64,000 nucleotides of DNA from Colwellia sp. MB3u-45. GTDB lineage: Bacteria; Pseudomonadota; Gammaproteobacteria; Enterobacterales; Alteromonadaceae. Each line of letters opens with the position of its first letter. Position 1 is the stretch's first letter. The stretch is taken from the NCBI RefSeq assembly GCF_014077005.1, contig NZ_JACGVC010000037.1, positions 1-64,000 of the forward strand, in the 5' to 3' direction. Under the pieces are notes generated by a model. It saw only the letters and a list, made by a program, of their open reading frames with translations, did no database searches and was not told the DNA's origin. Position numbers and translations under genes: made by a program. Of the stretch, positions 41,883 to 47,234 are shown piece by piece.

Positions 41883-42779
41883 TTAGCCTTTGAAAGCGAG
41901 ACTAAATTTTTGTGGCAGATTCATTTTTTGTGAATATAGCGCCTGATCCGCACGGAGAAAAAAACTGGAAACATCGTCAGCTCTGTTCATAAAAGCTAAG
42001 CCTAAGCTACAGGTTACATGATACTTTGCTAATAATATATCTTGCGACATTGTGTGGTAAATTCTTTGCTCGATGACGGTTAACGATGGTTTGGTCGCAT
42101 CAGTGACGATAATCGCGAATTCATCACCACCAAAGCGGAAAACATAGTCAGTATCTCGAACACTTTGTCGTAATGCCTTGGCAAAATGTATTAAGACGTT
42201 ATCGCCCATAGCGTGACCAAAAGAGTCGTTAACGGCTTTAAACTTGTTTAAATCACAAAAAATTAAGCCAACTAGCGTCTGTTGGCGAGTGGATTGGGCC
42301 ATGGCGCGTTTAATTTGTTCGTCAAAACTACGTCGGTTGCCTAATTGGGTTAAGCTATCTTGCATCGCTAATTGCATTGCTTGGTGATATTGCACGGCAT
42401 TATTTAAAGGGTTGATTAATAACTCATGCAGTTCAGTCAAGACTTTATCATTAGTCATACTGATGGGAATGTTAACTGCATAAGTAATTATGCCAAAAAA
42501 TTGACCATTGAGTTTTAACTCAAACTGACGTTCTGCTTTAGCCTGCCGACTGTCCTTGGCTGTCGCATTTATATCAGGGTGTTTAAAATAAACACCTGTA
42601 AAATCAAGGTACTTTGCCACTTCAACTGCAAAAATATTGATAAGTTCTTTTACATCTAACGTGGTTTGTAATTGCTTAAGCAAGGCTAAATTACGTTGGC
42701 TCTGTTGTTCACTTTGTTGAAATAATGTGAAGGCATTAAATTTAGAGTTAGGGTGATCAACAACATTAACTGTAGCCAT
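41883..42779 (-). CDS. Diguanylate cyclase with N-terminal GAF-like sensor part
   Basis: 298 aa. The C-terminal GGDEF domain is complete: DSLTQLGNRRSFDEQI near residue 133, FCDLNKFKAVNDSFGHAMGD near 173, active site FRFGGDEFAIIV near 217. It should make c-di-GMP from two GTP. The RxxD inhibitory site before GGDEF reads RQSVRDTDY, with RDTD present, so feedback inhibition is possible. The N-terminal 120 residues look like a soluble GAF-type sensor without TM helices. No EAL domain. It lies 4.3 kb from a predicted c-di-GMP riboswitch. Confidence 0.92.
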   Translation of the reverse strand: MATVNVVDHPNSKFNAFTLFQQSEQQSQRNLALLKQLQTTLDVKELINIFAVEVAKYLDFTGVYFKHPDINATAKDSRQAKAERQFELKLNGQFFGIITYAVNIPISMTNDKVLTELHELLINPLNNAVQYHQAMQLAMQDSLTQLGNRRSFDEQIKRAMAQSTRQQTLVGLIFCDLNKFKAVNDSFGHAMGDNVLIHFAKALRQSVRDTDYVFRFGGDEFAIIVTDATKPSLTVIEQRIYHTMSQDILLAKYHVTCSLGLAFMNRADDVSSFFLRADQALYSQKMNLPQKFSLAFKG

Positions 42780-46680: not shown

Positions 46681-47040
46681 CTAACCACCAACACGTTCGT
46701 TTGCAGCGTCGATTAATGGTTGCGACCCATGTTGAATAAGGGGTAGATTTTCAGAAACAACGTCTCTTGGTAATTTTCCAATCATCAAAGAGCCTATCTC
46801 AACTGAACCCCTGGTAGCAGCAAATTCTAACAAGTTTTGACCATTACACTTAATATCTGAAAAAATATCACGAATTCTTAATCTATTCGCCTTTAAGAAT
46901 GAACGCATACGTCTTTTGTCGTCTGCAGCAACATACTCACATATACTTAGTGCAATGTCAGCAGCTTGCGCTTTTGGCGTTGATACAATAGACGTCATTG
47001 TTAAAGCAGTAATGGTAGTAACTAGTAATAATTTTTTCAC
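46681..47040 (-). CDS. Secreted DUF3718 family protein
   Basis: 119-aa exported protein. Signal peptide (MKKLLLVTTITALTMTSIVS, cleavage near AQA-AD at residue 26) and a DUF3718 body: ICEYVAADDKRRMRSFLKANRLRIRDIFSDIKCNG with the family's paired cysteines (Cys33 and a later Cys-Asn-Gly) and LEFAATRGSVEIGSLM. The family is restricted mainly to marine gammaproteobacteria and has no known function; the ankyrin-like look of the second half is only an impression. A GEMM-type c-di-GMP riboswitch lies in its leader, so expression is probably tied to c-di-GMP level. Confidence 0.85.
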   Translation of the reverse strand: MKKLLLVTTITALTMTSIVSTPKAQAADIALSICEYVAADDKRRMRSFLKANRLRIRDIFSDIKCNGQNLLEFAATRGSVEIGSLMIGKLPRDVVSENLPLIQHGSQPLIDAANERVGG

Positions 47041-47100
47041 TTTAATAACCTTTTATAATACAAATAGAGTTAATAAAAGAAAAAACCACAGGATGTACCT

Positions 47101-47199
47101 AATAACACGGTGACTCCGCTGTCATAGATAAAGATAGTACTATCCTTAGACCGGTGGTTTTGCGTAACACGTTTTCGCGTGTTTTGCCTTTTCTTTGTT
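47101..47199 (-). ncRNA. Cyclic-di-GMP-I (GEMM) riboswitch
   Basis: On the minus strand the leader reads ggcaaaac, then a stem with a GAAA-type loop (cacgcgaaaacgtg), then ttacgcaaaaccaccggtct, and at the end agcggagtcaccg. These match the order and wording of the c-di-GMP-I consensus (GGCAAAC, GNRA-capped P2, ACGCAAAGCCACCGGTCTAA, AGCGGGGTTACCG of the Vibrio Vc2 type). The aptamer ends 60 bases before the DUF3718 ATG. Downstream, gtggtttt followed by a T-rich run (47075-47089 region) can pair with aaaaccac of the aptamer, a plausible terminator or switch element. Confidence 0.88.
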
Positions 47200-47205
47200 A
47201 GTGTA

Positions 47206-47234
47206 ATTATCACTAAAGTCGTAGTTAATTGCAA
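47206..47234 (-). promoter_or_regulatory. Predicted sigma-70 promoter of the riboswitch transcript
   Basis: TTGCAA (-35, 47234-47229), 17-base spacer, GATAAT (-10, 47211-47206) on the minus strand; start predicted near 47199, just ahead of the aptamer. The -35 lies inside an inverted repeat at 47229-47248. Confidence 0.6.

Follow-up and report, generated by a model that had tools for sequence, protein, structure and literature searches.

The Vc2 riboswitch of Vibrio cholerae, whose target is tfoY, belongs to the c-di-GMP-I (GEMM-I) aptamer class, as does the element analysed here. In passages of a review of such riboswitches, the targets of the class include motility, chemotaxis and adherence (PMC6366702). 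Class-I switches of C. difficile and B. thuringiensis have the same aptamer (PMC6366702; PMC11218506), and the targets named for them in those passages are flagellar, protease and adhesin genes, with no DUF3718 gene among them (PMC6366702). Vc1, which precedes V. cholerae gbpA, likewise has its class-I aptamer where a long 5′ UTR begins, and its target in this aquatic gammaproteobacterium is a surface-acting exported protein (PMC4744006). The likeness covers the aptamer, its position in the UTR and the target. Vc1 differs in that its target is a GlcNAc-binding colonisation factor, for which positive control by c-di-GMP is reported (PMC4744006).

The window (the whole stretch of Colwellia sp. 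MB3u-45 DNA that was analysed, 64,000 nucleotides) contains a DUF3718 gene in whose leader a sequence-only reading had placed a GEMM-I aptamer. The motifs quoted in that reading are present on the minus strand, and the covariance-model search that it proposed gave a match to RF01051 of 68.0 bits, well over the gathering threshold of 35 (E 3.5e-11, model positions 1-87 of 87; cmscan, Rfam 15). Nothing else in the 64-kb window reached an Rfam gathering threshold, and 65 nt separate the aptamer from the GTG start of the DUF3718 gene (Table 1). The GAAA tetraloop and the conserved GGCAA, CGCAAA and AGCGG segments are present, in columns that are invariant or nearly so among relatives. Across 48 distinct relatives, 92 cells in the aptamer helices are changed on both sides of a pair, compared with 37.8 in shuffles (0/500 as high); the number of pairs with a both-side change was not above shuffles in the same set (9 vs 8.8). 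Paired cells amount to 87.7%, and to 28-37% when the partner is slid along the alignment. The identity of the aptamer is thus a computed result, on which the covariance-model score, covariation and the conserved pairing of aptamer and gene all agree.

Table 1. Features of the DUF3718 locus, in window coordinates
Feature	Position	Strand	Basis
c-di-GMP-I (GEMM-I, RF01051) aptamer	47106..47198	(-)	cmscan match and helices covarying in 48 distinct relatives
Switching strand 1, AAAACCAC, within the aptamer	47154..47161	(-)	complements strand 2, with 99.0% of cells paired
Aptamer 3′ strand GGAGUCACC, alternative partner 47091-47099	47109..47117	(-)	predicted fold
GGUACAUCC, alternative-fold partner of the aptamer 3′ strand	47091..47099	(-)	predicted fold and leader alignment
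Switching strand 2, GUGGUUUUUUCUUUUAUUAAC, pairs with strand 1 or the start region	47069..47089	(-)	folds, duplex energies
Strand 3: Shine-Dalgarno AGG (47051-47049), GTG start (47040-47038) and first codons	47030..47051	(-)	duplex energy
DUF3718 gene, 119 aa, GTG start	46681..47040	(-)	PF12514, 61.9 bits (cut-off 22.5)

The whole genome holds three c-di-GMP-I aptamers and two DUF3718 genes, so their chance adjacency is very unlikely. The second DUF3718 gene lies at a contig start (30.7 bits), and no aptamer was found there. Downstream of the other two aptamers (L002, L003) are a gene for a PapD-type chaperone (PF00345, 29.2 bits) and an ORF of 461 aa that is lipoprotein-like and has no Pfam match. 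The diguanylate cyclase gene that had been noticed about 4 kb away does encode a GGDEF protein (PF00990, 144.6 bits; 41883-42779), 3.9 kb from the DUF3718 gene, and this proximity proves nothing about function. We infer with high confidence that the leader is a c-di-GMP-I riboswitch acting on the DUF3718 gene, one that would bind c-di-GMP.

The pairing of aptamer and gene is conserved. A search of 118 genomes of the same family identified at least 39 orthologous genes in 38 genomes, with identities of 56-80% (99% for the window itself). How often DUF3718 genes carry the aptamer had been proposed as a check, and the Rfam model placed it upstream of the orthologue at 29/29 loci (L067-L095), compared with none of 11 DUF3718 loci from other groups, a sample drawn from the 30 loci L006-L035. 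A second genome collection was represented by the best 80 of 81 matches, and its loci overlap those of the 118-genome set; here a model built from 20 aptamers, the window's included (R1), detected the aptamer at 63/63 loci of 62-85% identity (L096-L158) and at 8/17 loci of 43-53% identity. Where both models were run, they concur on L159, L162, L174 and nine aptamer-less loci. In both of these overlapping sets, the aptamer lies about 60-70 nt upstream of the DUF3718 start at every orthologue locus. All 39 listed orthologues are preceded by it, 31 according to Rfam, 3 according to R1 (L209, L210 and L234, with only 44.5 bits for L210) and 5 from the coordinates of search matches. The 38 genomes contain at least 131 c-di-GMP-I aptamers, about 60 of them before DUF3718 genes (39 orthologues and 21 paralogues), a comparison of figures from different searches in which the aptamer count used stricter filters and lost weak matches.

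The loci of the second collection come from Colwellia, Cognaticolwellia, Pseudocolwellia, Thalassotalea, Thalassomonas, Litorilituus, MAGs and one genome labelled Endozoicomonas. That genome, Endozoicomonas sp. G2_1 (L156, L174), has an orthologue and a paralogue, both with the aptamer, a pattern like that of Colwelliaceae which may reflect a mislabelled organism or a transfer of the genes. Tandem DUF3718 genes with one aptamer each are found at L073 and L105, probably from one species. At L081 and L124, a diverged second copy without its own aptamer lies downstream of the riboswitch-controlled copy and may be co-transcribed with it. The gene neighbourhood recurs too: the 4-kb flanks of the 63 loci contain relatives of the window's atoA and atoD (57), HMG-CoA lyase (60), patatin (55), KefB (49) and the cyclase (21), as surveyed by tblastn for presence only, with gene names assigned by eye except for patatin and the cyclase.

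A total of 98 orthologue leaders were collected, of which 73 are distinct. The two strands that the sequence-only reading had picked out, aaaaccac (47161-47154) and gtggtttt (47089-47082), are exact complements, and a T-rich run follows. The AAAACCAC/GUGGUUUU helix has 99.0% of its cells paired in 48 distinct leaders, and the consensus fold of the leader alignment includes it unforced. One both-side change (A-U to U-A, L156) and six one-side changes keep the pairing, and one pair is broken in L080/L114. Covariation was not above shuffles (score 42/500 as high, paired cells 148/500) because the strands hardly vary, and it was rejected as proof of this helix for the same near-invariance. The alternative GGAGUCACC/GGUACAUCC pairing has 94.4% of cells paired in its outer helix and 83.9% in its inner helix, with no covariation. 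Two other pairings seen by eye in the leader alignment, 5′ AAAGAAAA with UUUUCUUU and GAGUUA with UAACUC, were dropped because changes in relatives break them. When 71 of the 73 distinct leaders were cut at the U tract and folded (L080 and L157 left out; strand 2 misplaced in three), the alternative fold was the minimum-energy fold in 64/71 and lay below the tract-free fold in 68/71, by a median of 7.1 kcal/mol. For the full leader, enforcing the strand 1/strand 2 helix puts the ensemble 1.7 kcal/mol above the unconstrained one, in RNAfold energies that take no account of ligand. Strand exchange through AAAACCAC/GUGGUUUU is predicted and likely.

Strand 2 is complementary to the start region as well, and both complementarities are computed directly. 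The strand 2/strand 3 duplex has an energy of -12.9 kcal/mol in the window; in relatives the median is -12.5 kcal/mol, compared with -5.0 when strand 2 is shuffled, and the native strand is better in 72/72. Combined with the starts of other leaders, strand 2 reaches -12.3, with its own start better in 46/72. Strand 2 of L067 gave medians of -6.2 and -7.8 with 21 aptamer-bearing and 34 aptamer-less other DUF3718 starts, the best values being -12.5 and -12.0. The first four codons read AUGAAAAAAUUA in 69/73 leaders, and the window has GUG. Three leaders of one lineage carry six As (L094, L153, L154), with longer A runs before the start; their own duplexes have energies of -13.3 to -13.4, compared with -7.8 to -9.6 for the majority strand 2, so that the fit is kept through matching changes. 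Ten leaders have runs of unusual length, and in five of them the fit is no better than with the majority strand 2. Removing the 8 nt that strand 1 holds weakens the duplex in 73/73 (median -6.6). Enforcing the aptamer core raises the pairing of the U-rich strand with the start region (0.97 vs 0.76), the reverse being seen in only 2/73. In full-leader ensembles, the unpaired probabilities of the Shine-Dalgarno sequence and the start codon were the same between states (0.31/0.32 and 0.38/0.37), and folding therefore does not settle the sign of control.

We propose that the DUF3718 leader gates a small exported protein by strand exchange among three competing RNA strands, namely AAAACCAC in the aptamer, GUGGUUUUUUCUUUUAYUAAC just after it, and the Shine-Dalgarno/start region; such a three-strand switch is likely. 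Bound c-di-GMP would hold the aptamer and make strand 1 unavailable, leaving strand 2 free to close a full helix over the start site; in the absence of ligand, strand 1 would take the first 8 nt of strand 2, weakening the start-site helix. The earlier suggestion that the alternative pairing acts as a switch thus stands as to conservation and predicted minimum-energy fold, and the sign of control is not given by the sequence, since the U-rich strand fits the start region too. Because the ligand would free strand 2 to cover the start, we lean to less translation at high c-di-GMP, that is, to an OFF switch by start-site masking, at what we judge to be even odds.

The main rival is a transcriptional ON switch by antitermination, which is possible on present evidence and which we hold only tentatively. 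Without c-di-GMP, the AAAACCAC/GUGGUUUU helix and a GGAnnnACC/GGUnnnUCC hairpin, followed by UUCUUUU, would form a terminator-like structure and end transcription, and the ligand would prevent this, giving the opposite sign. The folds of the leaders cut at the U tract, in which the alternative fold prevails, are as this model predicts, and a U run is present. The segment from the aptamer to the U tract is barely structured by itself (median -2.1, lowest -4.7 kcal/mol, n=72), so no terminator compatible with a bound aptamer is seen. In the cut-leader folds, however, the stem closes a multibranched junction, and it would be unusual for a terminator stem to enclose some 60-75 nt of junction. Termination leaves unexplained why the U tract contains a C and is followed by a conserved AYUAAC, whereas pairing with the start region explains both, and L214 has AAACCAC...GUGGUUU without a U run. 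Described systems point both ways: in passages of the review, B. thuringiensis Bc2 is a class-I ON switch acting by read-through, and the two class-I switches of V. cholerae are described as having no control over termination (PMC6366702).

A different possibility is that the aptamer binds c-di-GMP but that DUF3718 is mainly under other signals, the leader being a weak or degenerate switch. In the review's passages, 11/16 C. difficile c-di-GMP riboswitches are called functional (PMC6366702), and in this clade one aptamer pair is mismatched in 47/48 and another lost in 21/48, with the divergent L210 looking degenerate by its R1 score. This explanation is nevertheless unlikely, as nearly all orthologue leaders retain the aptamer, the spacer and both competing strands. 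That the ligand is cGAMP (GEMM-Ib) and not c-di-GMP is very improbable, because a G occupies the specificity position, which we take to correspond to G20 of Vc2 (the first G of GGCAAA), both in the window and in all leaders aligned except L210. Related aptamers do bind cGAMP, 13 GEMM-Ib riboswitches being named for G. sulfurreducens in one study (PMC8835794). Taken as a whole, the best explanation of the locus is a predicted c-di-GMP-I riboswitch gating exported DUF3718 by strand exchange, to which we assign a probability of about 0.7.

The DUF3718 protein has a Sec-type signal peptide at about residues 1-26, as judged by eye, and cysteines C34 and C65, invariant in 29 aligned relatives, could pair as a disulfide. 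Its AlphaFold2 model (29 sequences) is helical, with a mean pLDDT of 86 and a pTM of 0.74. A Foldseek search of the PDB gave 288 matches; of the 50 shown, most are by title DARPins or other ankyrin proteins, the remaining titles being uninformative. The ankyrin matches have E values of 0.1-0.5 and query TM scores mostly of about 0.5, with no match at E 0.001 among those listed. In a sequence-profile search, the best match was to engineered proteins (E 0.0022 over 26 residues). The protein is probably a minimal ankyrin-like domain that is exported; the model resembles the fold of ankyrin-repeat proteins (DARPins and natural repeats), a resemblance and not membership. A role in surface life (attachment, motility) is inferred from the c-di-GMP signal alone. 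No paper in the open-access literature searched names DUF3718 or PF12514 (print beyond open access may differ), which agrees with the earlier remark that DUF3718 is not known as a described riboswitch target, and no paper there joins GEMM, riboswitch and Colwellia. The aptamer class is known; the DUF3718 target is apparently undescribed.

Of the genomes sampled, at least 232/246 from the window's family and 55/197 from its order have DUF3718. The window protein lies above the cut-off of the family PF12514, most members of which, beyond the orthologues and nearest paralogues, have no aptamer in the samples scanned. Among 60 further family loci, hand-picked from the listed DUF3718 matches, 26 have the aptamer, 23 of these being non-orthologues (L203 offers only about 70 nt of upstream sequence). 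Another 31 DUF3718 loci have none, with one noise match of 19 bits (L020). In 40 loci of other families, picked in the same way, two aptamers were detected, at L272 (69.0 bits) and L274 (59.2 bits), each about 70 nt before the start; another four matches, at 12-16 bits, count as noise. The post-aptamer segment of L272 and L274 is predicted to fold over the Shine-Dalgarno sequence (z -1.9 and -3.3). In paralogue leaders, a 5′ GAAACG could pair with a downstream CGUUUC; in 14/24 distinct leaders at most 5/100 shuffles are as good (L179 left out), and this platform is suggestive only. tRNA clusters lie within about 1 kb after aptamer-less DUF3718 paralogues at 8/9 loci scanned (L160, L163, L164, L165, L166, L168, L171 and L172; the exception is L169).

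A protein tree was built from 123 of the 172 distinct proteins, with L096-L158 and L006-L035 each thinned to one in three. On it the aptamer label requires 4 changes compared with 39.6 in shuffles, a difference to be read with the caveat that near-copies make any label cluster and that columns are few. The window's orthologues form one clade and 40 aptamer-less paralogues another; the remaining aptamer-bearing paralogues are scattered around both and do not form a single clade. An extended tree places L272 and L274 on long branches in a group of nine, seven of which are without an aptamer. A single origin of all aptamer-bearing DUF3718 genes was neither shown nor rejected (p-AU 0.099, long branches).

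The best-scoring c-di-GMP-I aptamers of the family search define 30 loci (L036-L065), in which the aptamer runs from position 1501; of these, 23 share a locus type with a divergent TPR-protein gene upstream (Pfam was run on L039 only). This type has a promoter-like TTTACA/TATAAT (by eye), the aptamer and then a conserved stretch, TTTAGATATAGTGGGGGCTT...ACTTTGCGTGC, holding an anti-aptamer strand, CTTTGCGT or ACTTTGCG, in 19/23. In 14/30 the RNA is directed into an antisense DUF885-like gene from its 3′ end, and the five of these looked at showed no convincing sense ORF; in 9/30 a GGDEF gene follows in sense. A stand-alone or antisense-acting c-di-GMP RNA is possible for this type. Other genes behind family aptamers (L036, L037, L042, L048) encode a subtilase, a GbpA-like LPMO, a ParA-type ATPase and a reprolysin-like protease; the LPMO (LPMO_10 and GbpA_2 domains) is the same kind of target as that of V. 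cholerae Vc1.

The competing strands offer a clean case for studying how one aptamer comes to be joined to different platforms before homologous genes, and the conserved riboswitch gives DUF3718, an uncharacterised family, its first regulatory clue, in the form of a signal and a direct assay. We somewhat favour the view that DUF3718 is a main, repeatedly recruited c-di-GMP output in Colwelliaceae and some other marine gammaproteobacteria; with apparently three kinds of platform serving one target, small exported ankyrin-like proteins would then be made or withheld with the change between motile and sessile life.
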